Source: Lutibacter agarilyticus (GTDB taxonomy: Bacteria > Bacteroidota > Bacteroidia > Flavobacteriales > Flavobacteriaceae). From it: a stretch of 64,000 bases of DNA. The DNA is taken from the NCBI RefSeq assembly GCF_900188235.1, contig NZ_FZNT01000001.1:124001-188000 (forward strand), given 5' to 3'. Shown one piece after another: positions 15,480 through 49,502 of this stretch. Position 1 is the stretch's first letter; each line of letters begins with the position of its first letter. The translations under genes were made by a program, and so were the position numbers. The notes under the pieces are model-generated. The model did not search any database and was not told the origin of the DNA. It saw only the letters and a program-made list of their open reading frames with translations.

Positions 15480-15482
15480 AAG

Positions 15483-15940: not shown

Positions 15941-15945
15941 TATTT

Positions 15946-17202: not shown

Positions 17203-17213
17203 AAAAAATAATT

Positions 17214-25307: not shown

Positions 25308-25315
25308 ACTATTGT

Positions 25316-26773
25316 TTATTCGTAGTTTAAATAAATAGTTCTCTTTTGAAGATAATGGTCTATTCCGAAAACACCATCTTCACCAGCATTTCCTGAAGTT
25401 TTATGTCCGGAATGGTAACCTTGAATATTACCAATAATTTGTTGATTGATAAAAATTGTTCCAACTTCTAAAGAGTCAATTGCTTTTTGATGCAATCTAT
25501 AATCGTTTGTATATAAATATGCAGAAAGACCTTCTTCTCTGTTATTTGCCAAAGCAACAGCCTCATCAAAACCATTTACCTTTACAATTGGCATTACAGG
25601 TGCAAAAAGTTCTTCGCTTATTGTTGGATCATTACCTTTAACATTTCCTAAAATAGTAGGAGCGTACCAGTTCCCTTTTTCAAAGTATGCACCTTCAGGT
25701 TTGTTTCCTCCTAAAAGAAGTTTAGCACCTTTATTTACATTTTCTTGCACTAAATTATTTACACGATCTAAACCAAATTTACTAACGTTTGGTCCCATAT
25801 GCACACCTTCAGCAAAAGGATCTCCAACTTTAATTTGTTGAGTTCTTTTTACAACTTTATCGGTAAATTCATCAGCAATTTTTTCATCAACAAAAACCAT
25901 TTCATTACAAATACAAACTTGTCCGCAGTTTGCATAGCGTGAAATTACTGCAGCTTCAACAGCCTTATCAATATCAGCATCAGCACAAACAATAAATGGC
26001 GCTTTTCCTCCTAATTCTAAAATTAAACCAGTAATATTATCGGCAGCAGCACGGTACATTGCTCTACCAGCTCTTGTGCTTCCTGTTAACGAAATTAATT
26101 TAGTAATAGGACTTTCAACTAATAATGAAGCAGCTTCAGCACTTTTTGTTGAAACCATATTTATCACACCTTTAGGTAAACTAGATTCATCAACTAAACG
26201 ACAAAATTCTGAAGCAGTTGTTGGAGTTAATTCGTGTGGTTTAATAATCATGGTGTTTCCAGTAGCTAAAGCCGGGCCAATTTTTCTTCCAATTAAAGCT
26301 AATGGATAATTAAAAGCACATAAGCCTACAGTTACTCCATAAGGTACTTTGTATATAGAAAGTCTTTTATTAGGTTGTTCCGCAGGAAAAATAGCGCCTT
26401 GAATTCTACGAGCTGCTTCCGCAGAATAGGTCATGTATGTAATTGTATCATCAACTTCACCCAATGCTTCAGGATAGGTTTTTCCTTGTTCTAGCACCAA
26501 AAGCTTGGCAAAATGTTCGCGTTCAGCTTTTAGTTTGTTTGCAATTTCAATAATATGTTGTGCTCTTGTGTTTGCAGGTGTTAACGCCCAGCTAATTTGA
26601 GCTTTTTCAGAAGTTTCCAATGCATATTGAACATCGTTTTTAGTACAAGCAGTAACGGTTGCATACACTTCATTGTTTGAAGGGTTTTCTACTTCAATAA
26701 CTTCTCTTGTATTATCGTCTAACCATTCTCCGTTGATATAACAACGATAATGTTGAATGTCTGTTTGATTCAT
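25316..26773 (-). CDS. Aldehyde dehydrogenase, AldA (lactaldehyde/glycolaldehyde) type
   Basis: A 485-residue NAD(P)-dependent aldehyde dehydrogenase. Catalytic C287 (CGQVCICNE) and the general base E253 (LELGGKAPF) are present, along with the LTGSTRAGRAM cofactor loop. The C-terminus (QGYHSGHKTSGNAGEDG, HYLQKRTIYL) aligns with E. coli AldA. AldA oxidises L-lactaldehyde from fucose or rhamnose breakdown to lactate. A GH29 fucosidase gene and RhaT transporters nearby fit this. It is the second gene of the minus-strand operon, 15 bases after the enoyl-CoA hydratase gene. Confidence 0.88.
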   Translation of the reverse strand: MNQTDIQHYRCYINGEWLDDNTREVIEVENPSNNEVYATVTACTKNDVQYALETSEKAQISWALTPANTRAQHIIEIANKLKAEREHFAKLLVLEQGKTYPEALGEVDDTITYMTYSAEAARRIQGAIFPAEQPNKRLSIYKVPYGVTVGLCAFNYPLALIGRKIGPALATGNTMIIKPHELTPTTASEFCRLVDESSLPKGVINMVSTKSAEAASLLVESPITKLISLTGSTRAGRAMYRAAADNITGLILELGGKAPFIVCADADIDKAVEAAVISRYANCGQVCICNEMVFVDEKIADEFTDKVVKRTQQIKVGDPFAEGVHMGPNVSKFGLDRVNNLVQENVNKGAKLLLGGNKPEGAYFEKGNWYAPTILGNVKGNDPTISEELFAPVMPIVKVNGFDEAVALANNREEGLSAYLYTNDYRLHQKAIDSLEVGTIFINQQIIGNIQGYHSGHKTSGNAGEDGVFGIDHYLQKRTIYLNYE

Positions 26774-26788
26774 GTTTGGTTTATTTTA

Positions 26789-27553
26789 TTATTCAAATTT
26801 TGGTTCTCTTTTTTCTATAAATGATTGAAATCCTTCTTTAGCATCAAATGTATCGTACAAAGTTTTAACCATATTGGTTTCTAATTGAAGGAAATCTTGT
26901 ATGTTTTTTCCAACTCCTTCAGCAAAAGTTTGTTTTATGGTTGCCATTGCTGTTTTTGGACCTTTGGAAAGATTCTTTACATATGTCAAAGCTTCTTCCT
27001 CGGCAGTTTTTTCATCGTATAATTTGTGTACTAAACCAATTCTAAATGCTTCTTCTGAATTAATTGGATTACCAGAAACAACCATTTCAAATGCATAAGA
27101 ATACCCTACAGCATTTACCAATCTTGGAATTCCGCCATTACCAGGCATTAGTCCTAGTTTAACTTCAGGTAAGCCTATTAAGAATTTTTTGTTTGAAGCC
27201 AAGCGAATATCGCAAGCAACTGCCAATTCTAATCCGCCACCCAATGTGTGACCATTTAAAAAAGCAATAAATATTTTAGTGCTTGTACTTATTATTTTGG
27301 CTATTTTATTAGCCTTAGCTACCATTTCGTTGTTTTGTACTACTGTGTTACTTGCAAAAACTTTGATATCGGCACCAGCACAGAAAAATTTAGGAATACC
27401 ACTTTTTAAAAGCAAAACGGCAATATTCTGATCATTTTCAATAGTATTTAAAATGGTTTCAAATTCATTGAAAAAGTGGATATCGTAACTGTTTGCTGGG
27501 GATTTTTCTAAAGTGATAATTCCCAATCTTTCTATTTTTTTATATTGAAACAT
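26789..27553 (-). CDS. Enoyl-CoA hydratase/isomerase (crotonase family)
   Basis: A 254-residue crotonase-fold protein. The oxyanion hole lies in FCAGADIKVF and GHTLGGGLELA, and both hydratase glutamates are kept (E109 in GGGLE, E130 in GLPEVKLG), so hydratase activity is plausible. It is the first gene of an operon with an aldehyde dehydrogenase, a sugar transporter and a GH2 enzyme, an unusual setting for a fatty-acid enzyme. With the CoA-transferases and MaoC hydratase at 31451-36692 it may serve a CoA-thioester route for a sugar-derived acid. That link is inference. Confidence 0.85.
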   Translation of the reverse strand: MFQYKKIERLGIITLEKSPANSYDIHFFNEFETILNTIENDQNIAVLLLKSGIPKFFCAGADIKVFASNTVVQNNEMVAKANKIAKIISTSTKIFIAFLNGHTLGGGLELAVACDIRLASNKKFLIGLPEVKLGLMPGNGGIPRLVNAVGYSYAFEMVVSGNPINSEEAFRIGLVHKLYDEKTAEEEALTYVKNLSKGPKTAMATIKQTFAEGVGKNIQDFLQLETNMVKTLYDTFDAKEGFQSFIEKREPKFE

Positions 27554-28160: not shown

Positions 28161-28931
28161 TTAACTTCCTATATATTTATTTATTTCTTGTTGTGTTTTT
28201 TGAAGTGCAATTAAAATATCTTTCATGTTTTGTTCTGTTTCTAAGCTCGAAGTAAATATCGAAATAGCTAAAACTGCAATTAATTCAGATTCATTATCTC
28301 CAATAGAAATTGCTATATCAGTTACACCACTCGTTAATTTACTATCAGAGTAGCTGTAACCGTCTTTTTTAACTTTGTCTATAAAATCTAATAAATTTTG
28401 TTGTTCCTTTTTACTCCATTTGGGGTAATGTGCATCTCTAGATAAAATTTCCATTCGCTCTTTTTCTGAAAGCATCGATAATAAAACACTCCCCGATGTA
28501 GTTTTAGAAAGTGGAAAATGAGTTCCTTCTTCAATAGACAGTGATACGGCGCTTGGACTTCTCATTTGAGAAATAATCAATAATTGATCATTATTCATAA
28601 TGCTTAAGTGACACGATTGTCGTGTAGTTTCAGATAATGATTGCATTGGATAACGTGCAACACGCTTTAATTCATCAAAAGGTGTATGTCTGTGAGATAG
28701 ACTATACATTTTTAACGAAAGTCTATATTTTCCAGCATTGGAACCTCTTGTTAAATAGCCTCTTTCTTCTAAGCAAACCAGCATTCTGTATATTTCACTA
28801 GGAGTTCTGTTTATACCTTGAGCAATTTCTACTTGAGATAAAGGAATACCTTCTTTTGATAAAAATTCTATAATATCTAAGCCTTTGTCAAGTGCTGGAG
28901 TGTTATATTTAGGTTGTGTATTTTCTGTCAT
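28161..28931 (-). CDS. IclR-family transcriptional regulator
   Basis: A 256-residue regulator with an N-terminal winged helix (TPALDKGLDIIEFLSKEGIP, then IAQGINRTPSEIYRMLVCLE) and a C-terminal IclR effector domain (RQSCHLSIMNNDQLLIISQM, DAHYPKWSKKEQ, GVTDIAISIG). The start MTENTQ at 28931 is chosen because the in-frame extension to 29009 has no family similarity and would run into the divergent promoter. IclR proteins commonly sense sugar acids or aromatic acids. It is divergent from the RhaT/SBP/CoA-transferase operon, with AT-rich dyads at both nearby promoters. Confidence 0.9.
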   Translation of the reverse strand: MTENTQPKYNTPALDKGLDIIEFLSKEGIPLSQVEIAQGINRTPSEIYRMLVCLEERGYLTRGSNAGKYRLSLKMYSLSHRHTPFDELKRVARYPMQSLSETTRQSCHLSIMNNDQLLIISQMRSPSAVSLSIEEGTHFPLSKTTSGSVLLSMLSEKERMEILSRDAHYPKWSKKEQQNLLDFIDKVKKDGYSYSDSKLTSGVTDIAISIGDNESELIAVLAISIFTSSLETEQNMKDILIALQKTQQEINKYIGS

Positions 28932-28975
28932 ATTACTTTTAATAGACTGTAAATTTAATAAATCTATTTTTGTTC

Positions 28976-29016
28976 TTGTGTATTTCATATATAAAAAGTA
29001 GTTTTGCATATGAAAT
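28976..29016 (+). promoter_or_regulatory. Promoter of the RhaT-SBP-CoA-transferase operon with flanking dyad
   Basis: A -33 TTG (28976-28978), 20-base spacer and -7 box TAGTTTTG (28999-29006) fit the Bacteroidota sigma consensus, 34 bases before the start codon. A perfect 9-bp inverted repeat (ATTTCATAT at 28982-28990, ATATGAAAT at 29008-29016) brackets the -7 box and would suit IclR repression. Confidence 0.6.
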
Positions 29017-29040: not shown

Positions 29041-30111
29041 ATGTCAAACCCATTATTAGGTACCTTAATTCATGCAGTAGGAGGTGTTGCAGCATCCACT
29101 TGTTATGTTCCATATCAAAAAGTAAAAAAATGGTCTTGGGACTCTTATTGGATTGTTCAGGCATCTTTTGCTTGGTTTATTTTTCCTTTTCTTATTGGTT
29201 TTTTAACGGTCCCAAATTTATTGTCAGTTTTTACTGAGGCATCTTCTCAAGTATTAATAAATGCAACATTATTAGGTGCTGTTTATGGTTTTGGAGGTAT
29301 GTGCTTTGGATTTGCAATTAGACATATTGGGTATTCTTTAACTTATACCATATCTATTGGTATTTCGGCTATTTTAGGGACAATTGTACCGTTAATTATG
29401 CACGGAGAATTGATGCAGAAATTTAATGGGCCTGGAGGTGTTACTATTTTCTTTGGAATGTTTTTAGCGCTGTTAGGTATTATTGTATGCGGAGTTGCGG
29501 GTTATAGAAAAGAGAAAGATTTAAAAATTAATAATGCAAATGCAAGTGAACCTTTAACATTTAATATGAAAAAAGGGCTAACGCTAACTATTATCGCTGG
29601 GGTTTTGTCAGCTGTTTTTGGAATTTCTTTAGAAGTTGGTGCTCCAGTTGCTGAAATTGCAGGAAACTACGGTGCTGGTAATTTTGAAGGCAATGCAAAT
29701 TTAATTCTTTCAACAGGAGGTGCATTTATAACAAACTTTATTTGGTTTGGAATTGCAGGTTTTAAGAATGGAACATTAAAGGAATTGGTTGATTTAAAAG
29801 GGATTGGTAAAAAGCATTTCTTTTTAAATCTTGGTATGTCAATTTTAAGTGGTGCTTTGTGGTACGGGCAGTTTTTCTTTTACGGAATAGGACATGTTCA
29901 AATGGGAGCTTACAAGTTTGCTAGTTGGGTAATTCATATGTCAATGCTAATTTTCTTTAGCTATATAGTTGGAATTATTATGAAAGAATGGACGCAAGTT
30001 AGCAAGCGTACTTATGGAACATTATTAATTGCCTTAGCTATATTAATTATTTCATTTGTTGTTATGACATATGGAAGTATGCAAGGTTCAGAAACAGGAA
30101 TGACACATTAA
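29041..30111 (+). CDS. RhaT-family L-rhamnose/proton symporter homologue
   Basis: A 356-residue inner-membrane protein with about ten hydrophobic segments. The N-terminus (CYVPYQKVKKWSWDSYW) and the segment ALWYGQFFFYGIGHVQMG closely follow E. coli RhaT (YAPFKKVKKWSWE; LQFFFYAWGHA), as does the C-terminal IVGIIMKEWTQVSKR. This is the most RhaT-like of the three homologues in the window. It is the first gene of an IclR-flanked operon, 14 bases before a cytoplasmic solute-binding protein gene. The substrate may be rhamnose or another (deoxy)sugar or sugar acid. Confidence 0.85.
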   Translation: MSNPLLGTLIHAVGGVAASTCYVPYQKVKKWSWDSYWIVQASFAWFIFPFLIGFLTVPNLLSVFTEASSQVLINATLLGAVYGFGGMCFGFAIRHIGYSLTYTISIGISAILGTIVPLIMHGELMQKFNGPGGVTIFFGMFLALLGIIVCGVAGYRKEKDLKINNANASEPLTFNMKKGLTLTIIAGVLSAVFGISLEVGAPVAEIAGNYGAGNFEGNANLILSTGGAFITNFIWFGIAGFKNGTLKELVDLKGIGKKHFFLNLGMSILSGALWYGQFFFYGIGHVQMGAYKFASWVIHMSMLIFFSYIVGIIMKEWTQVSKRTYGTLLIALAILIISFVVMTYGSMQGSETGMTH

Positions 30112-30125
30112 TAAATAAAATAGAA

Positions 30126-31280
30126 ATGAGTACAAAAAAAGTGCAATTAAAAGGGATTACTTGGAATCATAGTCGTGGATTTACTTCAATGGTTGCTACG
30201 GCACAACGTTTTTCAGAATTAAACCCTAATGTAGAAATTACTTGGGAAAAAAGATCTTTGCAAGCATTTGCAGATGAGCCAATTAACGAACTAGCTAAAC
30301 GGTACGATTTGTTAATTATTGATCATCCCTGGGCTGGTTTTGCAGGGAAGAATAATGTTATTTTACCTTTGGATGAATACTTGCCAAAAGAATTTTTAGA
30401 AGATTTAGCACAAAATTCTGTTGGTCGTTCACACGAAAGTTATTCTTCAAACGGACATCAATGGGCATTGGCTGTAGATGCGGCAACTCCGGTAGCTTCA
30501 AGTCGTCCTGATATTTTAGAAAAAAAAGGATTAGAATTACCTAAAAATTATGATGATTTATTAGCTCTTGCTAAAAAAGGGTTGGTGATTATGCCTGGAA
30601 TCCCTCAAGATACATTGATGAATTTTTATATGATGTGTTGTAATTTAGGTGAAGAAGTTTGTACTTCAAAAGAGCACGTTGTTAGTGAAGAGGTAGGAAT
30701 AAAAGCATTAAAAATGTTACGTGAATTAGCGGTAGAAATGGATCCTCAAATTTTTGATTGGAATCCAATTAAAGTCTATGAAGCTATGACGCAAACCGAT
30801 AAATATGCATACTGTCCTTGGGCTTATGGATATACAAATTATAGTAGAAATGGATATGCACGTAAATTATTACATTTCCACGATATGGTAGAAATTAATG
30901 GTGTTGGCGCTATTTCAACTTTAGGAGGAACAGGTTTGGCAGTTTCAGCAAAAGCTACAGAATTAGAAACTATTATGAAATATGTGGAATATGTAGGTTC
31001 TGAGGAATGTCAGAAAACAGTATTCTTTGATAATGGAGGGCAGCCAGGTCACAGAAAAGCTTGGACAGATGAGCATACAAATAGCTTAACGGCAAACTTC
31101 TTTAAAAATACATTGCCAGGATTGGATAGAGCATTTTTACGTCCACGTTACAACGGCCATATGTATTTTCAAGATAGAGCAGGAACACCAATTAGAAATT
31201 ATTTGATGAATGGTGGTGATGAAAAAAGTTTGTTAACAGAGTTGAATATAATTTATAAAAAGTCTTTAGAGATTGAATAA
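30126..31280 (+). CDS. Family 1 solute-binding-protein homologue without signal peptide (SBP-1)
   Basis: A 384-residue protein with the fold pattern of ABC sugar-binding proteins: PNVEITWEKRSLQAF, then RYDLLIIDHPWAG, a WALAVDAATPVASSRPDIL hinge segment, and LGGTGLAVSAKATELETI. The N-terminus (MSTKKVQLKGITWNHSRG) has no hydrophobic stretch or lipobox, so it should remain in the cytoplasm. No ABC permease or ATPase is encoded anywhere in the window. It follows rhaT by 14 bases and precedes the CoA-transferases across a 170-base gap holding a palindromic repeat. A ligand-sensing or enzymatic role is possible; transport by ABC uptake is unlikely. Confidence 0.75.
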   Translation: MSTKKVQLKGITWNHSRGFTSMVATAQRFSELNPNVEITWEKRSLQAFADEPINELAKRYDLLIIDHPWAGFAGKNNVILPLDEYLPKEFLEDLAQNSVGRSHESYSSNGHQWALAVDAATPVASSRPDILEKKGLELPKNYDDLLALAKKGLVIMPGIPQDTLMNFYMMCCNLGEEVCTSKEHVVSEEVGIKALKMLRELAVEMDPQIFDWNPIKVYEAMTQTDKYAYCPWAYGYTNYSRNGYARKLLHFHDMVEINGVGAISTLGGTGLAVSAKATELETIMKYVEYVGSEECQKTVFFDNGGQPGHRKAWTDEHTNSLTANFFKNTLPGLDRAFLRPRYNGHMYFQDRAGTPIRNYLMNGGDEKSLLTELNIIYKKSLEIE

Positions 31281-31297
31281 AACTGAACAACTAGTTA

Positions 31298-31419
31298 CGT
31301 CAGTTCGAGTGGTTTATTCGTAACGAAGTGAAGAAAAAAATGTATAGAGAACTTTTCAACTATGAGATCGACTTCTCGATACAATTTTTCTCGTACCTTA
31401 AAAATCACTCGAAGTGACA
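31298..31419. repeat. Intergenic palindromic repeat, type B, copy 2
   Basis: An element of about 122 bases with outer arms CGTCAGTTCGAGTG and CACTCGAAGTGAC and inner arms TGTATAGAGAA / TTCTCGATACA. It is homologous to 15483-15599. It lies within an operon, between SBP-1 and the first CoA-transferase gene. Confidence 0.75.
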
Positions 31420-31450
31420 TGTTTTTTAATTATCAAAAAATAATAATAAA

Positions 31451-32593
31451 ATGAGACCATTAGAAGGTGTTTTAGTTTTAGAGTTTGCTCAATTTATGGC
31501 GGGACCTTCCGCAGGATTAAAATTAGCAGATTTAGGAGCTAGAGTTATAAAAATTGAAAGACCAGGAAGCGGTGAAGCTGGTAGAGGAATTGCATTAAAA
31601 AATTTATTTTTAGATGGTAGCAGTTTGGTTTTTCATACAGCAAATAGAAATAAAGATTCTTACGCAGCCAACTTAAAAGATCCAGAAGATTTAGAACGTG
31701 TTAAAAAATTAATAGCACAAGCTGATGTTATGACTCATAATTTCCGTCCGGGAGTTATGGAGAAAATAGGATTAGACTATAAAACCGTTGAAGCAATAAA
31801 CCCGAAAATGATATATGCTACAGTTACAGGTTATGGAACTGAGGGACCTTGGGCAAAAAAACCAGGTCAAGATTTATTGGTACAATCTATGTCTGGTTTT
31901 GCAAATTTATCTGGAGATAAAGATGATGATCCAGTACCAGTTGGCGCTGCACTTTCTGATATTATTACAGGAACGCATTTAGCACACGGTATTTTGGCTA
32001 GTTTATTGCGTCGTGAAAAAACAAATAAAGGTGCTTTGGTTGAAGTAAGCTTATTAGAATCTACTTTAGATTTTCAGTTTGAAGTAATTACAACGTATTT
32101 GAATGATGGAAATCAAAAACCAGTAAGAGCAAAACAAGGTAATGCACACGCTTATTTGGGTGCGCCTTATGGTGTTTATAAAACGAAAGATAGCTATATT
32201 TCTTTAGCAATGGGTTCATTGTTAACTTTAGGAGAAGTTTTAAAATGTGATGCTTTAGCTGTGTATACTGATTCAGATTCTTGGTTTACAGACCGAGATG
32301 AAATAATGGACATTTTACGCTCTTTTCTTATTGATAAAACAACAGTTGAGTGGTTGGCTATATTAGAACCAGCAGGAATTTGGTGTTCTGATGTGTACGA
32401 CTATAAGAAGTTGTTAAATCACGAAGCATATAAAGTGCTTCAAATGGATCAACGTTTACAATTACTTTCTGGTGAAGAAGTACACACAACTCGTTGTCCA
32501 ATTAGAGTGAATGATGAACGCTTATTTGCAAGTAAACCAGCACCAAGAGTTGGTCAGCATACGGAGGGTATTATTAAAGAATTTAATCTATAG
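31451..32593 (+). CDS. Class III (CaiB/BaiF) CoA-transferase, subunit/paralogue 1
   Basis: A 380-residue protein with the family start [20 protein letters not shown] and [20 protein letters not shown]. It also has the [14 protein letters not shown] and [13 protein letters not shown] elements and the catalytic Asp at D170 ([11 protein letters not shown]), equivalent to Asp169 of formyl-CoA transferase. These enzymes swap CoA between an acyl-CoA donor and a carboxylate through an aspartyl anhydride. It is followed after 4 bases by a paralogue, so a heteromer like the succinyl-CoA:malate CoA-transferase SmtAB is possible. The acid substrate is unknown. Confidence 0.88.
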
Positions 32594-32597
32594 TAGC

Positions 32598-33743
32598 ATG
32601 AAACCATTAGAAGATATATTAATTATAGATTTAAGTCAGTTTTTATCAGCACCTTCTGCAACATTACGATTGGCAGATTTAGGAGCGAGAGTAATAAAAG
32701 TTGAACGACCAGAAACTGGTGATATTTGTCGCCAATTATACGTTTCAAATGTTATTTTAAACGGAGAATCTTCTGTTTTTAGAGCGATAAATAGAAACAA
32801 AGAAAGTTTTCAAGCCGATTTAAAAAACGAAATTGACAAACAACGAGTTTTAAAATTAGTTCAAAAAGCAGATGTGTTAATTCATAATTTTAGACCAGGT
32901 GTAATTGAACGTTTAGGGTTTGATTATGATACTATCAAAAAAATAAATCCTAGTATTGTTTACGGAGATATTTCAGGATACGGTTCTGAAGGTCCTTGGA
33001 AAGCAAAACCAGGACAAGATTTATTAGTACAATCATTATCAGGTTTAACGTGGTTAAATGGTGTTGATGGTAGCGGGCCAACGCCTGTTGGATTGGCAGT
33101 TGTTGATATTTTATCTGGAGCTCATTTGGTACAAGGTATTTTAGCTGCGTTATTAAAAAAGGCTAGAACTGGAGAAGGAAGTAAAGTTTCAGTAAGTATG
33201 TTAGAGTCAATTTTAGATTTTCAATTTGAATCTATTACAACTTTTTATCACGATGGTGGAGCTCCAACAGTTCGTCCAAAATCAAATAGTGCACACGCAT
33301 ATTTAGGAGCGCCTTATGGTGTGTACAAAACTCAAAATGGTTATTTAGCCTTGGCAATGGGTGCAATTCCATTTTTAGGTGAATTGTTAGGTTGTAAAGA
33401 ATTAACAAACTACCCAGAACCTGCAAGTTGGTTTATAGAAAGAGATGCTATTAAAAAAGCATTGGCAGATCATTTAGCTACAGATACTACCGAAAAATGG
33501 TTGTCAATTTTAGAACCTGCAGATATTTGGTGTGCAAATATTATGGATTGGGATACTTTATTTACTCAAGATGGGTTTAAGGTGTTGAATATGATTCAGA
33601 AGGTAACAATGAGAGATGGCTTTGAATACGAAACTACACGTTGCCCAATTAAAATTGATGGAGAATATTTAACTTCATCATTAGGTTCTCCAATGTTAGG
33701 AGAACACACAGATTTAATTTTAAAAGAATTAATTGAAGGTTAA
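32598..33743 (+). CDS. Class III (CaiB/BaiF) CoA-transferase, subunit/paralogue 2
   Basis: A 381-residue paralogue of the preceding protein, keeping D170 ([12 protein letters not shown]). Its start [15 protein letters not shown] at 32598 aligns with the start of the first copy; a longer frame from 32511 would overlap the first gene by 83 bases and is rejected. The stop codon shares one base with the start of the second solute-binding-protein gene (33743), so translation is coupled. Both copies keep the active-site Asp, so neither is an obvious inactive subunit. Confidence 0.87.
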
Positions 33744-34978
33744 TGAAATCAAATAAATTCAGAATAGCTGTACGTAAATTTGATGCTTTTGAATCTTCAA
33801 TAGAAAAGATTTGGAAATTATTTTGCAAAAAAACAGGGTGTAAATTAGAGTTGGAAGCAGTTCCGCTAGATTTACATCCGTTGTATGATACCATTTTAAA
33901 AGAAGATGGATTAAAAAATGGAGTTTGGGATGTTTCGTTGATAAATACAGATTGTATTACAGAGGCTTTTACTTCTAACTCAGTTGAAGATTTAACTTCT
34001 TACATTGAAAAAAATCCACCAGAAGATTTTCCAAATGGTTGGTCTCGATCGTTACTATACAAACAAGAATTTGATGATAAAATTGTTGGATTGCCTTTTC
34101 ACGATGGTCCAGAATGTTTAATTTATAGAAAAGATTTATTTGAATCTATTGAAGAAGGTGTTGCGTATTATAGAGAATACGGTAAACCTTTAGAAATTCC
34201 AAAAACTTGGGACGATTTAATGGAGGTTGCTGAATTTTTTAATAGACCTGAAGAAAATTTATACGGTACTACATTTGCGGCATATCCTGATGGGCATAAC
34301 ACAGTTTTTGATTTCTGTTTACAATTATGGACAAGAAATGGAGAATTATTTGATGAGGATAAAAAGATAAAACTAAATTCTGTTGCAGCTATTGAAGGAA
34401 TGGAATTTTACAGAAAAGCTTTAAAAAACACCAAGGCAATTCATCCAGATTCTTGCGAATTTGATTCTGTGAAATCAGGAATGGCATTTGCAAATGGAAA
34501 TTTAGCAATGATGGTTAATTGGTTTGGATTTGCTTCAATGTGTGAGTTTTTAGAAGATTCAAAAGTAAAAGGCAATGTTGATATTGCAAATGTCCCAGCG
34601 GGTCCAACGGGTGAAGGTACTTCGTTAAATGCCTATTGGATGTATGTGATTGGAGCGGGAAGTAAACAAAAAGATGTAGCCTATGAGTTTATTAAATTTG
34701 CAGTAAACCAAGCAAACGATAAGCTATTAACTTTAGAAGGTGCTATTGGTTGTAGAAAATCTACTTGGCACGATACAGATGTTAATAATGAAGTTCCTTA
34801 TTATTACAAATTAGAAGAGTTGCATAAAAACACACGGTCACTTCCTAGAAAAAGTAATTGGTCTGAAATTGCCGATGTTATAGATCAGCTGGTTTTAGAA
34901 GTTATAAATACTTCCAAAGACATTAAAACTATTTTAGATAAAGCTCAATTAGAAATAGATCGTGTAGAAAATATATAA
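33743..34978 (+). CDS. Family 1 solute-binding-protein homologue without signal peptide (SBP-2)
   Basis: A 411-residue maltose-binding-like SBP_bac_1 protein: WDVSLINTDCITEAF, KIVGLPFHDGPECLIYRKDL, PKTWDDLMEVAEFFNRPEEN, NGNLAMMVNWFGFASM and VPAGPTGEGTSLNAYWM are typical ligand-cleft and hinge segments. The N-terminus ([19 protein letters not shown]) is hydrophilic with no export signal. The gene overlaps the CoA-transferase stop by one base upstream and the oxidoreductase start by one base downstream, so it is an integral, co-translated member of the set. No partner permease is visible. Its function in the cytoplasm is not known to me. Confidence 0.78.
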   Translation: MKSNKFRIAVRKFDAFESSIEKIWKLFCKKTGCKLELEAVPLDLHPLYDTILKEDGLKNGVWDVSLINTDCITEAFTSNSVEDLTSYIEKNPPEDFPNGWSRSLLYKQEFDDKIVGLPFHDGPECLIYRKDLFESIEEGVAYYREYGKPLEIPKTWDDLMEVAEFFNRPEENLYGTTFAAYPDGHNTVFDFCLQLWTRNGELFDEDKKIKLNSVAAIEGMEFYRKALKNTKAIHPDSCEFDSVKSGMAFANGNLAMMVNWFGFASMCEFLEDSKVKGNVDIANVPAGPTGEGTSLNAYWMYVIGAGSKQKDVAYEFIKFAVNQANDKLLTLEGAIGCRKSTWHDTDVNNEVPYYYKLEELHKNTRSLPRKSNWSEIADVIDQLVLEVINTSKDIKTILDKAQLEIDRVENI

Positions 34979-36051
34979 TGATGGAATTACAATATAAACC
35001 AGAATTACCAAAAGAAAAACGTCCAATTTATATTATTGGCGCAGGAGGAATTGTTCGTGATGCGCATTTACCAGCTTATAAAAATGCAGGTTTTGTGGTG
35101 GAAGGAATTACCAACCGAACAAAACAACGCGCAATAGATTTAGCAAAGTCATTTAATATACCAAATGTTTATGATTCTGTAGAAGATATGGTTGAAGCAG
35201 CTCCAAAAAATGCTGTTTTCGATTTAACATTAATGCCAAATCAGTTTGTAGCTACTTTGGAATTATTACCAAATGAAGCAGCGGTTTTAATTCAAAAACC
35301 AATGGGAGATAATTATGAGCAAACCTTAGAGATTTTAGAAGTATGCCGAAGAAAAAAACTAAAAGCTGCTATTAATTGTCAAATGCGTTTTGCTCCTTAT
35401 GTAATGGCTGCAAAATATTTAATAAAACAAGGTTTGATTGGTGAATTGTACGATTTTGAAGTGCGTTTAACAACTTATACACCATGGGAATATTTTCCAA
35501 ACGTGGTAAATCATCCACGTTTAGAAATTCAACAACATAGTATTCATTATATCGATTTAATTCGTTCATTTTTAGGGAATCCAGGGAAGGTGTATTCTAA
35601 AACACTAAAAAACCCAGCAAAACCAATGTCGTCAACTCGTACAACTACAATTATGGATTATAGTGATCGTATGAGAGCGATTATTAATACCAACCACGAT
35701 CATAATTTTGGTGAGAAAAATCAAGAGAGTTTTGTGAAATGGGAAGGCACAAAAGGAGCCATTAAAGCAAGAATTGGATTGTTGTTAGATTATCCAAACG
35801 GAAAACCAGATTTGTTTCAATATTGTATTGTAAAAGAAGGTGAAGAACCAAAGTGGGTTGAGGTTGAATTGGAAGGGTCTTGGTTTCCAGATGCGTTTGT
35901 AGGTACTATGGCTTCGTTAATGCGTTTTGTTGAAGGTGCAACAACCGAATTACCAACAAGTGTTGAAGATGTAGTACATTCAATGGCAATTGTTGAAGCT
36001 GCTTACAAATCTAATAACGATGGAGGAGTGTATCCAAATTATAATCTATAA
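34978..36051 (+). CDS. Gfo/Idh/MocA-family NAD(P)-dependent oxidoreductase
   Basis: A 357-residue protein with an N-terminal Rossmann motif (IYIIGAGGIVRDAHLPAY), the family ExP-like motif at LIQKPMGDNYEQTLE, and the C-terminal alpha/beta domain with the HYIDLIRSFLG segment that carries the usual catalytic His. Such enzymes oxidise or reduce sugars, inositols or sugar acids. The start at 34978 overlaps the SBP-2 stop; a second ATG follows immediately. As the last gene of the operon it may form, or further oxidise, the sugar acid that the CoA-transferases activate. Confidence 0.85.
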   Translation: MMELQYKPELPKEKRPIYIIGAGGIVRDAHLPAYKNAGFVVEGITNRTKQRAIDLAKSFNIPNVYDSVEDMVEAAPKNAVFDLTLMPNQFVATLELLPNEAAVLIQKPMGDNYEQTLEILEVCRRKKLKAAINCQMRFAPYVMAAKYLIKQGLIGELYDFEVRLTTYTPWEYFPNVVNHPRLEIQQHSIHYIDLIRSFLGNPGKVYSKTLKNPAKPMSSTRTTTIMDYSDRMRAIINTNHDHNFGEKNQESFVKWEGTKGAIKARIGLLLDYPNGKPDLFQYCIVKEGEEPKWVEVELEGSWFPDAFVGTMASLMRFVEGATTELPTSVEDVVHSMAIVEAAYKSNNDGGVYPNYNL

Positions 36052-36146
36052 GAGTTCTTCATCAAAATAAAAGACAAATTTATAGCTATTAGTTTTGATT
36101 TTTTTCATAAAACGAATGTCTTTTTATCTATAACAAACGCGTTTAA

Positions 36147-36180
36147 CACTTTAGTTTAAAGTGATATAAGGTTATATTTG
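36147..36180 (+). promoter_or_regulatory. Promoter and dyad before the MaoC-GH29 genes
   Basis: TATATTTG (36173-36180) fits the -7 consensus TAnnTTTG, 62 bases before the MaoC start. Upstream, 36147-36163 is a perfect dyad (CACTTTA-GTT-TAAAGTG) overlapping the expected -33 area, suggesting separate regulation from the preceding operon. Confidence 0.55.
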
Positions 36181-36242
36181 ACTACATTTTTTACAATATA
36201 TAAACAAAATAAGAACATCTAATAAAATTACAACATCTAACA

Positions 36243-36692
36243 ATGCATATCATATCAAGATTTTACGAAGACTACGAATTAGGTAGTAAAAGAGAAACAT
36301 TAGGTAGAACAATTACAGAAACAGATTTTGTAGTTCACGCAGGGCATACGGGCGATTATTTTCCGCATCATATGGACGCTGAATGGTGTGCAACACAACC
36401 TTTTAAACAGCGCATTGCACACGGAACATTAACATTTTCTGTTGGTATTGGAATGACAGCCACCGAAATAAACCCGGAAGCATTTTCAAAAGGGTACGAT
36501 AGATTGCGTTTTGTAAAACCAGTTTATATTAATGATACGATTCGTGTAGTGGTAACAATTAGTGAAAAAAAGGAATCAAAACGCCCTGAATTAGGACATG
36601 TAAATGAGCACGTTGAAATTTTTAATCAAAGAAATGAATTGGTGCTAGTTTGCGATCATATATTATTAGCAAAGAAAAAAACAATTAAATAA
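36243..36692 (+). CDS. MaoC-like (R)-specific enoyl-CoA hydratase/dehydratase
   Basis: A 149-residue single hot-dog domain protein. The hydratase motif region reads [19 protein letters not shown] followed by [15 protein letters not shown], matching the (D)x(N)PxHxD...G...HG pattern of MaoC proteins with substitutions (Tyr-Phe in place of Asn). It hydrates or dehydrates acyl-CoAs in the cytoplasm. It is 8 bases upstream of a secreted fucosidase gene and 191 bases after the CoA-transferase operon, with a promoter of its own. A role as the hydratase of a CoA-dependent sugar-acid route is inferred from context. Confidence 0.83.
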
Positions 36693-36700
36693 TTATATCA

Positions 36701-38266
36701 ATGATGAAATCATATTTATTAGGAATTCTTACTGTTTTATTATTAGTTTCATGTAATTCAAAAGATAAAAAAACAGAAAAAGAAGTAACTCAGGAAATTA
36801 CATATAAAGCCGACTGGGAATCGTTAAAACAACACAAAACACCAGATTGGTTTTTAGATGCAAAATTCGGTATTTATTGCCATTGGGGGCCATATTCGGT
36901 ACCGGCATATGAGACAGAATGGTATGCGCACTGGATGTATGTAAATAAAGACAATCCTGAAGCAAAAAATGGAAAAGCACATAAAATCTACGATTACCAC
37001 GTAAAAACCTACGGGGAATTAGACAAATTTGGATATAAAGACTTTATTCCAATGTTTAAAGCTGAAAAATTTGATGCTGCTGAATGGGCCGATTTATTTG
37101 AAAAAGCTGGAGCTAAATTTGCTGGGCCAGTATCAGAACATGCTGATGGTTTTGCGATGTGGGATAGTGAATTAACCAAGTGGGATTCAAAAGATATGGG
37201 ACCTAAACGTGATATTATGGGTGAACTTTCTAAAGAAATTCGCAAGCGTAATATGAAATTTATAGCCACTTATCACCGTCAATGGTTGTTTGGTTGGTAT
37301 CCAACTTGGGATGAAACTACTGATGCTTCAGATCCTAAATACGCGGGATTATATGGTCCTGAGTTGAAAAAAGGAGACAATAAAATGCCAAAAAGTAAGC
37401 ATCAACTTGACAATGGTGATACGAGTTATTACCCAGTTGGTGATAAAGAGTTTAATGATGAATGGTTAAACAGATTGAAAGAAATTATCAATAAATATAA
37501 TCCTGATTTAGTTTGGTTTGATAATAAAATGGATGTTGTTAGTGAAGAACATAGAAAGGAATTCTTAGAGTATTACTACAATCATGCTGAGAAAAATAAT
37601 CAGGAAGTAGTAGCTACCTATAAGTTTTATGATTTTGCTGAAGGATCTGCAGTGTACGATTTAGAACGTGCCAGAATGAGTGAAAAGAAAGATTTCCCGT
37701 GGTTAACAGATGATTCTATAGACTGGAAAGCTTGGTGTCATATTGATGATCCTAATTATAAGTCAACTAACCGTTTAGTAGATTTCCTAGTAGATGTTGT
37801 AAGTAAAAATGGTGCGGTATTATTAAATATTACGCCAAGAGCAGATGGTACAATTCCAGAGCCCGTTAAAGAGCGTTTATTAGAAATGGGGCAATGGTTA
37901 AAAGTTAATGGTGAAGCAATTTACGGAACCAGAACTTTTGAAATTTATGGTGAAGGTGATGCTGAGGTTGTTGAAGGGCATTTAAGCGAACAAAAAAATG
38001 CTGATAATACAGCAAAGGATATTAGATTTACTACCAAAGGAGAAATCTTATATGCTATTGTGTTAGATTGGCCTGAAGGAGAAGAGTTAGTAGTTCATTC
38101 ATTAAAAGAAGGAAATGAATTATTCACCAATGAAATTGAATCAATTCAATTATTAGGAAGTGAAGGAAATTTAGATTTTAAAACGGATGAAGAAGGTTTA
38201 AAAATTAAGCTTCCTACAAAAGTAGGGGAGCACGCTTTTGCTTTTAAAATTACACCTAAGAAATAA
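36701..38266 (+). CDS. GH29 alpha-L-fucosidase-family lipoprotein
   Basis: A 521-residue lipoprotein (lipobox LLLVSC). The GH29 signature is clear: WFLDAKFGIYCHWGPYSVPA, then GPVSEHADGFAMWDSELTKW and a nucleophile segment DLVWFDNKMD (D274). The C-terminal beta-sandwich starts near residue 425. GH29 enzymes release alpha-linked L-fucose, and some members in red-galactan loci act on alpha-L-galactose-type linkages. It is predicted to be periplasmic or surface anchored, and transcribed with the MaoC gene. A terminator follows. Confidence 0.9.
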   Translation: MMKSYLLGILTVLLLVSCNSKDKKTEKEVTQEITYKADWESLKQHKTPDWFLDAKFGIYCHWGPYSVPAYETEWYAHWMYVNKDNPEAKNGKAHKIYDYHVKTYGELDKFGYKDFIPMFKAEKFDAAEWADLFEKAGAKFAGPVSEHADGFAMWDSELTKWDSKDMGPKRDIMGELSKEIRKRNMKFIATYHRQWLFGWYPTWDETTDASDPKYAGLYGPELKKGDNKMPKSKHQLDNGDTSYYPVGDKEFNDEWLNRLKEIINKYNPDLVWFDNKMDVVSEEHRKEFLEYYYNHAEKNNQEVVATYKFYDFAEGSAVYDLERARMSEKKDFPWLTDDSIDWKAWCHIDDPNYKSTNRLVDFLVDVVSKNGAVLLNITPRADGTIPEPVKERLLEMGQWLKVNGEAIYGTRTFEIYGEGDAEVVEGHLSEQKNADNTAKDIRFTTKGEILYAIVLDWPEGEELVVHSLKEGNELFTNEIESIQLLGSEGNLDFKTDEEGLKIKLPTKVGEHAFAFKITPKK

Positions 38267-38281
38267 ATTATTTTTAATAAC

Positions 38282-38319
38282 AAAAAAGCCTCAAATATTT
38301 AAATGTTTGAGGCTTTTTT
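38282..38319 (+). terminator. Terminator after the GH29 gene
   Basis: 14-bp stem AAAAAAGCCTCAAA / TTTGAGGCTTTTTT with a 10-base loop, 15 bases after the stop codon. The remaining spacer to 38560 holds an AT-rich dyad (TATAATTTT-atg-AAAAATTATA, about 38484-38505) and nothing else that I can support. Confidence 0.87.
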
Positions 38320-38560
38320 ATTTAAAAACTCCAGATATTTCAATTATTAGTAGTTAAAACAAAAGTGATGATTTTTGATTGAAATTACTTATTCAGTTTG
38401 ATAAAAAGACAAAATTATTTAAAAAAAGAACATTTGTTATACTAATTAATATTCTAGGAAACATTGAGAGGCACCGAAAAGTATAATTTTATGAAAAATT
38501 ATAAGTGCAAAAATGGATTTAGAAAATTAACATAAAAAAATAGAATCCAACTAAATTAAA

Positions 38561-41029
38561 ATGAATAGAAAAATGAAAAAAACACTTTTTTTAAGGTATT
38601 TAATGCTGTTGTTTGTTATGTGTAAGCTAAATGCACAAGATGTTAATTTTAACAAAGATTGGTTGTTTAAAAAAGATACAATTATTGGAGCAGAAACAGT
38701 TGCTTTTGATGATTCAAATTGGAGAAATGTAGACTTACCTCACGATTGGGCTATTGAAGGTCCGTTTAGTAATTCAAACAATGCAAGAACAGGTGGATTA
38801 CCGGTGCATGGGGAAGCTTGGTATCGTAAACATTTTTCGGTAGCTAAAAATTTAAAAAACAAACAAATTGCAATTGAGTTTGATGGTGCAATGAGCAATG
38901 CTAAAGTTTATTTAAACGGCGAGTATGTAGGTGAAAGACATTACGGATATATTGGTTTTGAATTGAATTTAACCCCATTTATTAAATTTGGAGAAGAAAA
39001 TGTAATAGCAGTTAAATTGGCTCCTGAAGATTTATCTATGCGTTGGTATCCTGGAGCAGGTATTTACAGAAATGTGAGATTTAAAATTAACAATGCACTT
39101 CACATTCCGCAATGGGGAACTTATATTACAACACCTGTTGTAAGCAGAGAAAGTGCTCAAGTTAATGTGCAAACAACTATTAAAAATACTTCTGAAATAG
39201 TTTCAAATGCAGTTTTAGAGACCCAAATTAAAAATCAAAAAGGTGAAGTTGTAGCTTCAATTTCTAGCCCTATTTCAATAGTTAAAAAGTCTTCAGATAA
39301 AATTTTACAAGAAATTGAAGTTAAAAATCCTGAAATATGGGACATTTCAAAACCCGTATTATATACTGCAATTAGTCAGGTAAAGGTTGATGGAAAATTA
39401 GTAGATGAATTTGTTTCACATTTTGGAATTAGAACTATTGAGTTTGATACCAATAACGGATTTTTATTAAACGGCAAAAGAGTTCAGTTAAACGGTGTTT
39501 GTATGCACCACGATTTAGGCCCTTTAGGAGCAAGTGTAAATTACAGAGCCACAGAGCGTCAAATGCAAATTATGCAAAGTATGGGAGTCAATGCTTTAAG
39601 AACCAGTCACAATCCGCCTTCACCAGAAATGCTTGAAGTTTGTGATAAATTAGGAATTGTGGTGATTGTTGAAGCTTTTGATGAATGGCAATTAGCGAAA
39701 GTTCCAAATGGGTATCACAAACATTTTGATAAATGGCATGAAAAAGATTTACGTGATATGATTAAGCGCGACCGCAATCATCCATCGGTAATTATGTGGA
39801 GTATAGGAAATGAAATTTTAGAGCAAAGCAAAAAAGACGGTTGGAAAATTACCAAAGAGCTGAACGATATTTGCCATAGTGAAGATCCAACACGACCAAC
39901 AACAGCTGGTTTTAATTATTATCCAGCACCCTTTACCAATAAATTAGCTGAGCAAATTGATGTAGTTGGAATGAATTATTGGCCAGCGCACTACAAAGAA
40001 ATTAAAGAAAATTACCCTGAAATTATATTGTATGGTTCAGAAACTTCTTCACAAACAAGTAGTAGAGGTGTGTACCATTTTCCAATTGAATTTAATGAAA
40101 AACACGAAACCAATCACGTATCAAGTTATGATGCTATTGTTGGGCCACCGTGGGCTTATGCACCCGATGTTGAGTTTGATGCACAAGAGCAAAATCCGTT
40201 TTCTTTAGGAGAGTTTATTTGGACCGGTTTTGATTATTTAGGAGAACCTACTCCGTATGGTGGTAGAGACAATTCAACCAATGGATATTGGAATGCAGAT
40301 TGGCCTTCACGTTCTTCCTATTTTGCACCTGTTGATTTATGTGGTTTTCCAAAAGATAGATTTTATTTATATCAAAGTCAGTGGACTACAGAGCCAATGG
40401 TACACGTATTACCACATTGGAACTGGGAAGGTAAAGAAGGTGATGTAATTCCTGTTTATTCATATACAAATTGTGATGAAGTTGAATTGTTTGTCAATGG
40501 AAAATCCTTCGGAAGAAAAATAAAAGGAGTCGATTTTACTGAAATTCCTTCAGAATATCACGGATTTGAAAAAGGTATGTACAAATCTAAATATCGTTTA
40601 TCGTGGAATGTGCCTTACCAAGCTGGAAGCTTAAAAGTAATGGGTTATCGTGATGGTAATGAAGTAGCGACAAAAGAAATTAAAACAGCCGGAGTACCTT
40701 CAAAAATTAAATTAATTGCAGACAGAGTTGAAATTAATGCTGATGGAATTGACTTATCTTTTATCTCTGTTCAAATTGAAGATAAAGATGGAAATATTTG
40801 CCCGATGGCTGAAAATAATATCACTTTTAAAGTTGAAGGAACAGGAGTTTTAGAAGCGATTGGAAATGGAGACCAAACATCGTTGGTTTCTTTTAAAGGA
40901 GATACTATGAAAGCTTTTAGCGGATTATGTTTAGCAATAATAAAATCTACTGATAAACCAGGTGAAATTAAATTAACAGCAACTTCAAAAGGACTTGCTT
41001 CTGATGAAATTAGAATTCAAACAAAATAA
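38561..41029 (+). CDS. Secreted GH2 beta-galactosidase-like enzyme
   Basis: An 822-residue protein (start 38561, or 38573 giving MKKTLFLRY) with a signal peptide ending at KLNAQ. GH2 domains: jelly roll (LPHDWAIEGPF, FDGAMSNAKVYLNGEYVGE), Ig-like domain, TIM barrel (LNGVCMHHDLGPLGASV), C-terminal Ig domains. The acid/base is E418 (MWSIGNEILEQ) and the nucleophile E494 (LYGSETSS). It is closely related to the GH2 at 18375. The last 20 or so bases of this gene recur as a fossil just before the sulfatase gene at 45129, evidence of a local duplication. Confidence 0.86.
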   Translation: MNRKMKKTLFLRYLMLLFVMCKLNAQDVNFNKDWLFKKDTIIGAETVAFDDSNWRNVDLPHDWAIEGPFSNSNNARTGGLPVHGEAWYRKHFSVAKNLKNKQIAIEFDGAMSNAKVYLNGEYVGERHYGYIGFELNLTPFIKFGEENVIAVKLAPEDLSMRWYPGAGIYRNVRFKINNALHIPQWGTYITTPVVSRESAQVNVQTTIKNTSEIVSNAVLETQIKNQKGEVVASISSPISIVKKSSDKILQEIEVKNPEIWDISKPVLYTAISQVKVDGKLVDEFVSHFGIRTIEFDTNNGFLLNGKRVQLNGVCMHHDLGPLGASVNYRATERQMQIMQSMGVNALRTSHNPPSPEMLEVCDKLGIVVIVEAFDEWQLAKVPNGYHKHFDKWHEKDLRDMIKRDRNHPSVIMWSIGNEILEQSKKDGWKITKELNDICHSEDPTRPTTAGFNYYPAPFTNKLAEQIDVVGMNYWPAHYKEIKENYPEIILYGSETSSQTSSRGVYHFPIEFNEKHETNHVSSYDAIVGPPWAYAPDVEFDAQEQNPFSLGEFIWTGFDYLGEPTPYGGRDNSTNGYWNADWPSRSSYFAPVDLCGFPKDRFYLYQSQWTTEPMVHVLPHWNWEGKEGDVIPVYSYTNCDEVELFVNGKSFGRKIKGVDFTEIPSEYHGFEKGMYKSKYRLSWNVPYQAGSLKVMGYRDGNEVATKEIKTAGVPSKIKLIADRVEINADGIDLSFISVQIEDKDGNICPMAENNITFKVEGTGVLEAIGNGDQTSLVSFKGDTMKAFSGLCLAIIKSTDKPGEIKLTATSKGLASDEIRIQTK

Positions 41030-41175
41030 ATGAAAAATATTATGATTCATACTGTTTTGAGTTACGGTTTTAAAAGCTCAAACAAAACCAAACATCATTT
41101 TCATTTTTACAGAGAATCAACAATATAAAATTATGGATTGTGAAGGAAAACAAATAATAAAAATAATTAAATAAG
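41030..41175 (+). pseudogene. Fossil 5' end of a sulfatase gene
   Basis: This spacer aligns along its length with the start of the intact sulfatase gene at 45129: shared blocks include GTTACGGTT, CAAACATCAT, CAATAT and TTATGG(A/G)TTGTGAAGG. Frameshifts destroy the signal peptide and the PNIIF-type motif. The preceding GH2 gene end is also repeated before 45129. It is therefore the left half of a duplicated sulfatase gene that has decayed. Confidence 0.75.
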
Positions 41176-41182
41176 TAATATA

Positions 41183-43405: not shown

Positions 43406-43454
43406 ATATTAGGTGCAAATTAGAAAGTACTAAAAACAATAACGCATATAAAAC

Positions 43455-43512
43455 ATTAGGGATTTAGCGAGTTAATAGGTTTATATCTAATCAATTACGC
43501 TAAATCCCTAAT
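43455..43512. terminator. 15-bp inverted repeat after the GH3 gene
   Basis: Perfect arms ATTAGGGATTTAGCG (43455-43469) and CGCTAAATCCCTAAT (43498-43512) with a 28-base loop. It lacks a clear T-run, so it may be a terminator, a transcript-stabilising hairpin or the remains of a mobile-element end. Confidence 0.5.
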
Positions 43513-43589
43513 TTAATTGTGAGAGTTGCAGAGTATAATACCGAGAGAAATAGTTAGTAATTAATTGATAGTGAAATAAAAAAACACGA

Positions 43590-44972: not shown

Positions 44973-44973
44973 T

Positions 44974-46772: not shown

Positions 46773-46785
46773 AAGGTAATTTAAA

Positions 46786-48090: not shown

Positions 48091-48103
48091 AACATCACTT
48101 CAA

Positions 48104-49492: not shown

Positions 49493-49502
49493 TTAAAAAC
49501 GT

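Follow-up and report, generated by a model that had tools for sequence, protein, structure and literature searches.

Solute-binding proteins (SBPs) are regarded as extracytoplasmic parts of transporters. Two of them, SBP1 and SBP2, are encoded together with two class III coenzyme A (CoA)-transferases, CaiB1 and CaiB2, in a 64,000-nucleotide stretch of the Lutibacter agarilyticus genome (contig NZ_FZNT01000001.1, positions 124,001 to 188,000; hereafter the window, numbered from its first nucleotide). With the family-1 (cluster D, MalE/TMBP/SmoF-type) SBPs of ATP-binding cassette (ABC) systems they share the SBP_bac_1 profile and the complete fold, but they have no signal peptide by a hydropathy index and no dedicated permease that could be found, and their genes lie within a CoA-transferase operon. 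Heteromeric class III CoA-transferases such as BbsEF likewise have tandem paralogous CaiB subunits with the catalytic Asp. BbsEF belongs to a toluene pathway, whereas the pair described here stands among genes for SBPs, sugar transporters, glycosidases and a Gfo dehydrogenase.

Two metabolic modules also offer points of comparison. Related clusters in Alphaproteobacteria resemble the oxidative (non-phosphorylated) L-fucose pathway in their mutarotase-, Gfo-, enolase-, SDR- and FAH-family genes and in an amidohydrolase that resembles a fuconolactonase (NF052480, 4.2e-33, at 115 bits below the cut-off of 400), although the textbook pathway is not known to include either a CoA-transferase, MaoC or a cytoplasmic SBP. 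Where a crotonase and an aldehyde dehydrogenase (ALDH) stand beside the CoA-activating enzyme (loci L148, L166 and L167), the arrangement is reminiscent of feruloyl-CoA type modules of a hydratase-lyase and an ALDH, which use a ligase instead of a CoA-transferase and lack the sugar context found here. No description of a cytoplasmic SBP acting with a CoA-transferase was found in the open-access papers searched, most subscription literature lying outside the search, and passages of one report (PMC11378808) name fucose enzymes and no such SBP/CoA-transferase system. The protein families themselves are known, but of the features that define ABC SBPs, an export signal and a cognate transporter were looked for and not found, and no known CoA-transferase equivalog fits. 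What we call new is a signal-less SBP and a CoA-transferase as a constant unit.

The core genes of the operon are as follows.

30126-31280, + strand: SBP1, 384 aa, full-length MalE/TMBP-type SBP without signal peptide (PF01547, 4.7e-11, 43.7 bits); constant partner of the CoA-transferase pair
31451-32593, + strand: CaiB1, class III CoA-transferase with the conserved catalytic Asp (PF02515, 4.9e-97, 325.8 bits)
32598-33743, + strand: CaiB2, class III CoA-transferase (PF02515, 8.2e-94, 315.2 bits); fused behind CaiB1 in Hymenobacter
33743-34978, + strand: SBP2, 411 aa, MalE-type SBP without signal peptide (PF01547, 7.8e-25, 88.9 bits); optional component

Both SBPs exceed the curated PF01547 cut-off of 26 bits. 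In the window genome (4.10 Mb, 99.97% complete) a whole-genome PF01547 search returned nothing beyond SBP1 and SBP2, and its two PF02515 matches likewise lie inside this operon. The SBP2 gene shares one-base overlaps with CaiB2 (TAATG) and with the Gfo gene downstream; these overlaps, the coordinates and the families were given correctly in an initial annotation made from the sequence alone. SBP1 overlaps no neighbour, lying 14 bp from rhaT1 upstream and 170 bp from CaiB1 downstream. Most of the SBP1-CaiB1 gap is occupied by an element resembling the REP/MITE type (31299-31418), one of two stretches of about 115-120 bp (the other at 15484-15598) flanked by the inverted repeat GTCAsTTCGAGTG, which has four matches in the window at one mismatch against 0.08 expected.

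SBP1 occurs with a CoA-transferase pair

A search with SBP2 found 148 loci, and the best 80 (from Bacteroidota, Acidobacteria and one Planctomycetes) were examined. The strict same-strand order SBP1-CaiB-CaiB-SBP2-Gfo, which the initial annotation had proposed looking for in other genomes with rhaT in front, is widespread and goes beyond chance: it is present in 64 of these 80 loci, at SBP2 identities as low as 51%, and in three more it has an additional Gfo gene. SBP1 was found in 73 of the loci, at least one CaiB in 77 and a MaoC match in 73. Six of the seven loci lacking SBP1 (all but L076) and six other loci were also searched as whole genomes, and all 12 genomes contained it.

SBP1 was present, at E up to 1e-30, in 19 of 395 Bacteroidota genomes. 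The CaiB clade of the operon occurs in exactly the same 19 genomes, always in two copies scoring at least 371 bits against 188 bits for the next homologue; such lower-scoring homologues (at most 188 bits) occur in 32 further genomes. SBP2 accompanies SBP1 in 13 of the 19 and is found in none of the other 376. The orthologous MaoC (at least 197 bits) is present in 17 of the 19 and likewise in none of the others, while 13 other genomes have weaker MaoC matches (76-92 bits), which lie in long frames resembling PaaZ. The constant partner of the CoA-transferases is thus SBP1 and not SBP2, on which the initial annotation had placed its emphasis. SBP1 was also found in 3 of 149 genomes of the phylum of an Acidobacteria locus and in 1 of 149 of the phylum of a Planctomycetes locus, the centre genomes being counted, and is therefore rare in these two phyla. 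In some genomes of the Bacteroidota survey only four first-look candidates were scored, and twelve in the other two surveys, so a weak relative may have been missed. SBP1 and CaiB are also close in position. Clustering at 99.9% identity left 113 distinct SBP1 genes, 108 of which have a same-strand CaiB gene no more than 400 bp away.

The two transferases are themselves closely tied. In all five Hymenobacter loci (L053, L055, L057, L060 and L061) they are fused into polypeptides of 791-815 aa, whose N-terminal half is closer to CaiB1 and C-terminal half closer to CaiB2, and the pair is therefore probably a heterodimer. All 145 aligned rows, from 135 called genes and 10 fusion halves, share an Asp that is presumably the catalytic residue. 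None of the NCBIfam models for known CoA-transferases (formyl-CoA, oxalate, succinate-glutarate, mesaconate and carnitine) came near its cut-off, the best equivalog scores being 229 of 750 bits for CaiB1 and 202 of 750 for CaiB2.

Outside these phyla, a tblastn search of SBP1 against plasmids returned 157 records, mostly from Sinorhizobium (90), with others from Rhizobium, Ensifer, Azospirillum, Roseibium, Labrenzia and three Streptomyces. In Pseudomonadota and Streptomyces one CaiB is paired with one SBP1, with a 4-bp overlap in L087, L090, L092, L094 and L099. In the plasmid regions read, the pairs have lactonase, IclR, enolase, mutarotase, Gfo, MaoC and SDR genes in their neighbourhood, sometimes also FAH or L-fuconate dehydratase, and an ABC importer that brings its own SBP. 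In Sinorhizobium meliloti the pair lies on pSymB (in strain 1021 at about 731.3-733.6 kb, with MaoC at 751.8-752.2 kb), about 12 kb from the remaining genes of the cluster; genes of this locus are reportedly required on L-fucose. A crotonase subtype (28.8-33% identity) has the order CaiB-SBP-crotonase in L094, L095, L096, L098 and L134. Croceibacterium and the archaeon Halostagnicola have SBP2 relatives, which in both cases are neighboured by a CoA-transferase, MaoC, Gfo and a fucosidase.

Two further observations concern individual genomes. Loci L028, L037 and L041 combine SBP2, GH29 and a distant MaoC (36-37%) and contain no match to CaiB or SBP1, SBP1 lying elsewhere in the genome; this suggests a fucosidase-linked role of its own for SBP2 in these loci. 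One genome contains, besides an SBP1 match free of stops, another one elsewhere (G406:C7:11363-12511) that is interrupted by a single TAA.

SBP1 and SBP2 lack a recognisable export signal

Export signals were scored by the maximum 11-residue hydropathy within the first 40 aa, with a threshold of 2.0; this is an index of our own, not a trained predictor. The start of each relative was chosen closest to that of the window protein. None of 86 SBP1 and none of 82 SBP2 relatives reached the threshold, the maxima being 1.25 and 1.27, and the N-termini of 73 SBP1 and 80 SBP2 relatives were also read directly. A loose lipobox pattern matched seven sequences of each group, none with a hydrophobic core. 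Among controls, secreted proteins of the same loci (glycosidase and SusD groups) had median indices of 2.0-3.0, and 11 of 14 annotated SBPs linked to ABC genes had a clear signal peptide by reaching 2.0. The other three were L091 and L092, whose annotated starts look truncated, and the halophile L089 (1.65). Fourteen annotated members of the SBP family itself stayed at or below 1.21. The index also exceeds 2.0 in cytoplasmic controls, with false positives in 47 of 71 Gfo, 9 of 135 CaiB and 1 of 35 IclR proteins.

A wrong start codon hiding a signal peptide was rejected on this index together with the upstream codons and a test of alternative starts. In the window, the open reading frame (ORF) listing has no earlier in-frame ATG, GTG or TTG for either protein, and the in-frame codons preceding SBP1 include no methionine. 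Because the relatives' starts had been picked nearest to that of the window protein, every upstream in-frame start was tried; such starts exist within 60 codons in 11 of the 86 SBP1 and 11 of the 82 SBP2 relatives, and none yields an index of 2.0 or more. The in-frame open stretch upstream is at most 30 codons long in 73 of 86 and 75 of 82 relatives, respectively. Moreover, SBP1 begins where mature SBPs begin, residues 5-384 of its model covering 3-405 (crystal numbering) of the Thermus binding protein 6j9w. The absence of a signal peptide or lipobox noticed at the outset therefore extends to the relatives, and it argues for the proposed re-employment of these proteins inside the cell; both are probably cytoplasmic. 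Among the SBP1 members whose sequences were read, every one with at least 28.8% identity is without a signal peptide. Of the more distant relatives, at 25% identity or less, L135 has a signal peptide by eye and L136 is the signal-bearing SBP of an ABC operon.

No ABC permease or ATPase was found in the window among the ORFs scanned, confirming the earlier observation; of 40 ORFs of at least 150 aa, all but one antisense frame were scanned, 37 with Pfam and two with NCBIfam only, and of the smaller ORFs only MaoC was included. Genome-wide, PF00528 matched three permeases of the Opp and nitrate/taurine types, all on other contigs, while the ATPase search covered the window only. Fourteen relatives' loci do have an ABC permease match 0.8-8.7 kb from SBP1, namely 11 plasmid loci (0.8-8.7 kb) and three of Mucilaginibacter (about 8 kb). 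In the annotated plasmid regions the nearby ABC system possesses its own SBP, with a clear signal peptide in 11 of 14. Homologues in close relatives that combine a signal peptide with a linked permease, which the initial annotation had named as the sign of a lost start, were thus looked for and not found.

Both proteins retain an intact, two-lobed Venus flytrap. Their AlphaFold models have a pLDDT of 92.8 each, and Foldseek matched both over their full length, as did VIA-align, which was run on SBP1 only. The best PDB matches were MalE3, the Thermococcus trehalose/maltose-binding protein, the Thermus alpha-glycoside-binding protein, 5iai and SmoF, and SBP2 aligned to 6dtq with a TM of 0.85. 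The best 50 Foldseek rows of each protein are binding-protein structures, the sole exception being 3w15_C, a thiolase-signal complex matched by SBP2 and presumably a maltose-binding protein fusion.

Mean column identity is 55% in 46 SBP1 and 63% in 41 SBP2 sequences. Invariant residues are W13, R17, W40, D66, D118, Y234, Y236, Y239, Q296, Q306, R339 and Q349 in SBP1 (46 of 46 rows) and H120, E124, D183, H185, N186 and R338 in SBP2 (41 of 41). SBP1 R339 occupies the position of R356 in the Thermus alpha-glycoside-binding protein, whereas the stacking Trp of the latter, W287, is replaced by T269 (T in 37 rows, A in 9). The position of Thermus D118 faces A120, with the invariant D118 of SBP1 two residues earlier. 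Judging by entry titles, the Thermus counterparts are among the residues mutated in deposited ligand complexes. The invariant R339, R17 and D118 together with T or A at the W287 position indicate that the SBP1 ligand site is conserved but altered from the ordinary one, and R17 and R339 suggest that it may suit an anion. A profile comparison relates SBP1 to SBP2 with 97.4% probability from column 57 onward; at only 16% identity they are not recent duplicates, and they are either old duplicates or separate recruitments.

Exchangeable modules and metabolic context

The genes surrounding the core in the window are listed below.

34978-36051, + strand: Gfo/Idh/MocA oxidoreductase, probable sugar dehydrogenase (PF01408, 2e-11); 72 of 80 loci
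36243-36692, + strand: MaoC hydratase-like protein (PF01575, 2.7e-22)
36701-38266, + strand: GH29 alpha-L-fucosidase, possible sugar source (PF01120, 2.5e-99); 12 of 80 loci
29041-30111, + strand: RhaT1, sugar/proton symporter homologue, probable uptake (PF06379, 4.6e-54); 35 of 80 loci
28161-29009, - strand: IclR-family regulator, probably of the SBP1-CaiB operon (PF01614, 2.6e-26); 36 of 80 loci
26789-27553, - strand: crotonase-family enoyl-CoA hydratase/lyase (PF00378, 6.7e-53); linked to SBP1 in L141, L148, L166 and L167
25316-26773, - strand: ALDH, AldA (lactaldehyde dehydrogenase)-like (NF007497, 1.7e-135, 452 bits against a cut-off of 500)
24279-25307, - strand: RhaT2, second RhaT homologue, in the crotonase-ALDH operon (NF010022, 2.4e-73)

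On the + strand the order from 29041 to 38266 is rhaT1-SBP1-CaiB1-CaiB2-SBP2-Gfo-MaoC-GH29; the IclR gene is divergent, and the - strand reads crotonase-ALDH-RhaT2-GH2. The best NCBIfam model for MaoC is the PaaZ C-terminal domain (TIGR02278, 1.1e-22), below the model's cut-off.

What stands around SBP1-CaiB1-CaiB2 is exchangeable. In the window the three genes are combined with MaoC, Gfo and SBP2. In L168-L171 a lactonase homologue takes the SBP2 slot, MaoC lying on the other side of SBP1 in L168, L169 and L170 and downstream in L171. In L166 and L167 the partners are a crotonase and an ALDH, and nothing in the 20-kb region matches MaoC, Gfo or SBP2. Since the downstream modules swap, the core that stays constant is SBP1-CaiB1-CaiB2. 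The orders SBP1-crotonase-ALDH-RhaT2 in L141 and crotonase-ALDH-SBP1-CaiB1-CaiB2 in L148 indicate that the second operon of the window (24279-27553) probably serves the same metabolism. SBP2 was also considered as a replacement for the lactonase. Four genomes do show the exchange in this slot, but exclusivity fails: of 32 genomes searched, 30 contain some amidohydrolase homologue, and in several that also carry SBP2 it lies 4-6 kb from SBP1. In the 80 SBP2 loci there were one amidohydrolase lactonase match, three enolase and five propeller lactonase matches, and the window genome has lactonase homologues elsewhere.

Oxidative catabolism of a 6-deoxy-sugar, perhaps of the L-fucose type, is suggested by GH29, RhaT-type transporters, fuconolactonase-like and mutarotase-like neighbours and the AldA-like ALDH, and the CoA-dependent sugar-acid pathway proposed initially is plausible from these neighbours. 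Uptake by RhaT, also proposed, is probable here, where a RhaT homologue adjoins the operon; across loci RhaT is only one of several neighbouring transporters, the others being of the major facilitator superfamily or ABC type.

Other gene sets were noted nearby. The region 36701-56280 (fucosidase, GH2, GH3, four sulfatases, GH28, then a TonB-dependent receptor and SusD) is probably a polysaccharide utilisation locus with a sulfated algal polysaccharide as its target. A P450, a ferredoxin-reductase-like flavoprotein and a zinc alcohol dehydrogenase at 14325-18332 resemble the 6-O-methyl-galactose demethylase module of red-algal polysaccharide users. A B12-dependent methyltransferase-like set at 9322-14164 (two URO-D family proteins, a B12-binding protein, a CobW-type and a methionine-synthase-activation-like protein) possibly serves O-demethylation of methylated sugars. 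In six Mucilaginibacter/Arcticibacter loci (L046, L050, L052, L058, L062 and L067), RuBisCO-like and Asp/Glu-racemase-family proteins are encoded downstream of the operon, an arrangement reminiscent of isoapionate/tetronate-type pathways.

A candidate substrate-binding subunit and its alternatives

We tentatively suggest a model in which SBP1 is the cytoplasmic, obligate substrate-binding partner of a heterodimeric CaiB1-CaiB2 with a sugar-acid-like ligand; it is the account that we favour, though we would stop short of calling it probable. SBP1, CaiB1 and CaiB2 would form a single functional unit in the cytoplasm, the CaiB pair acting as a heterodimeric class III CoA-transferase. The cleft of SBP1 would take up a sugar acid, or the lactone or acid product of Gfo, and either hand it to the transferase or keep hold of it during CoA transfer. 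The acyl-CoA might then pass to MaoC for hydration or dehydration, or to the crotonase, with the ALDH oxidising an aldehyde product, in a pathway for a 6-deoxy-sugar, perhaps of the L-fucose type; SBP2 would have a related, optional job. What the genomes show is the partnership of the genes; contact of SBP1 with CaiB, the ligand and each of the reactions belong to the model. The wider claim is more doubtful: that this is a new kind of enzyme architecture, a three-component sugar-acid CoA-transferase, with an ABC-type SBP as cytoplasmic substrate-binding subunit of CaiB1-CaiB2 (or of one CaiB in some lineages), feeding a CoA-thioester 6-deoxy-sugar route in Bacteroidota, Acidobacteria, Planctomycetes, Pseudomonadota and Streptomyces, with a version of SBP2 plus one CoA-transferase in Halostagnicola.

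Several points weigh against the suggested unit. Its support is genomic association throughout, and the 19 genomes represent 10 genera, their co-occurrence counts being uncorrected for shared descent. Five of the 113 SBP1 genes lie more than 400 bp from a CaiB: Microvirga L093 has no CaiB match in 21 kb, L122 has one at 599 bp, Fodinibius L140 and Flavobacterium UMI-01 L141 have none in 20 kb (the latter with an adjacent crotonase), and in Adhaeribacter L142 it is 8 kb off. Within the crotonase subtype, L138 has the crotonase in a different order. Martelella L097 carries a CoA-transferase and crotonase with no adjacent SBP, its SBP1 lying 6 kb away. A CaiB-SBP1 fusion, which would have been proof of contact, was sought by open-frame length in 19, 12, 3 and 1 positive genomes (partly overlapping sets) and none was found; SBP1 frames measured 379-443 aa in the 19 genomes and 386-429 aa in 17 places of the 12. 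Class III CoA-transferases are otherwise not known to work with an SBP-like partner. The L-fucose assignment rests on neighbours, and GH29 is present in only 12 of the 80 loci.

The strongest rival holds that SBP1, and SBP2 with it, are enzymes whose cleft has gained catalysis (isomerisation, lactone opening, elimination or acyl migration) on a sugar acid or CoA ester, as independent steps of the pathway. The dense sets of invariant residues in both proteins may point this way, as does the lactonase homologue in the SBP2 slot of four genomes lacking SBP2, and enzymes of the type II periplasmic-binding-protein fold are known from menaquinone, histidine and haem synthesis. The structural matches, nearly all to binding proteins, speak against it, although catalysis is compatible with them. 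In Alphaproteobacteria SBP1 stands alongside lactonase, mutarotase, dehydratase and dehydrogenase genes, so that no named pathway gap fits it, and SBP2-bearing genomes also have more distant lactonase homologues, so that SBP2 is not simply a lactonase. We consider an enzymatic role unlikely, if a serious contender. Alternatively, the proteins could be cytoplasmic sensors or buffers that bind a sugar or sugar acid and report to IclR, or lower the free intermediate, with no contact to the CoA-transferases. In favour are the sugar binding of the SBP fold, the IclR match in 36 of 80 loci and the use of SBP-fold domains as effector domains in regulators. This role is quite improbable, however, because neither protein has a DNA-binding, kinase or other output domain and the firm link, in 19 of 19 genomes, is to CaiB, whereas IclR is near in fewer than half of the loci.

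Two readings that deny an intracellular function have far less in their favour. That the annotated start is wrong, or export unconventional, and that these are ordinary periplasmic SBPs serving a distant permease would agree with the otherwise extracytoplasmic PF01547 family and with the 14 SBP1 loci that have a permease match nearby. It is very improbable given that a hydrophobic N-terminus is absent from every relative, also from alternative starts, that the upstream open stretches are short, that SBP1 starts where mature SBPs do, and that the window genome has neither another PF01547 match nor a sugar-type PF00528 permease. The genes could finally be neutral passengers, relics of a lost ABC transporter retained in the operon by chance, as ABC genes near some of them might suggest; open frames strongly conserved across several phyla and constant co-occurrence with CaiB make this hardly credible.

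Taken as a whole, the initial interpretation is partly supported, with its emphasis moved from SBP2 to SBP1. Two SBP families appear to have turned cytoplasmic, and one of them, SBP1, is never found without the CoA-transferase pair in the 19 Bacteroidota genomes. The relatives are annotated as 'extracellular solute-binding protein' or 'ABC transporter substrate-binding protein', and if the model is correct many database names would be wrong. One of the most abundant protein folds of bacteria would then have acquired a new use, and sugar catabolism in marine, soil and plant-associated bacteria would include a branch that depends on CoA.

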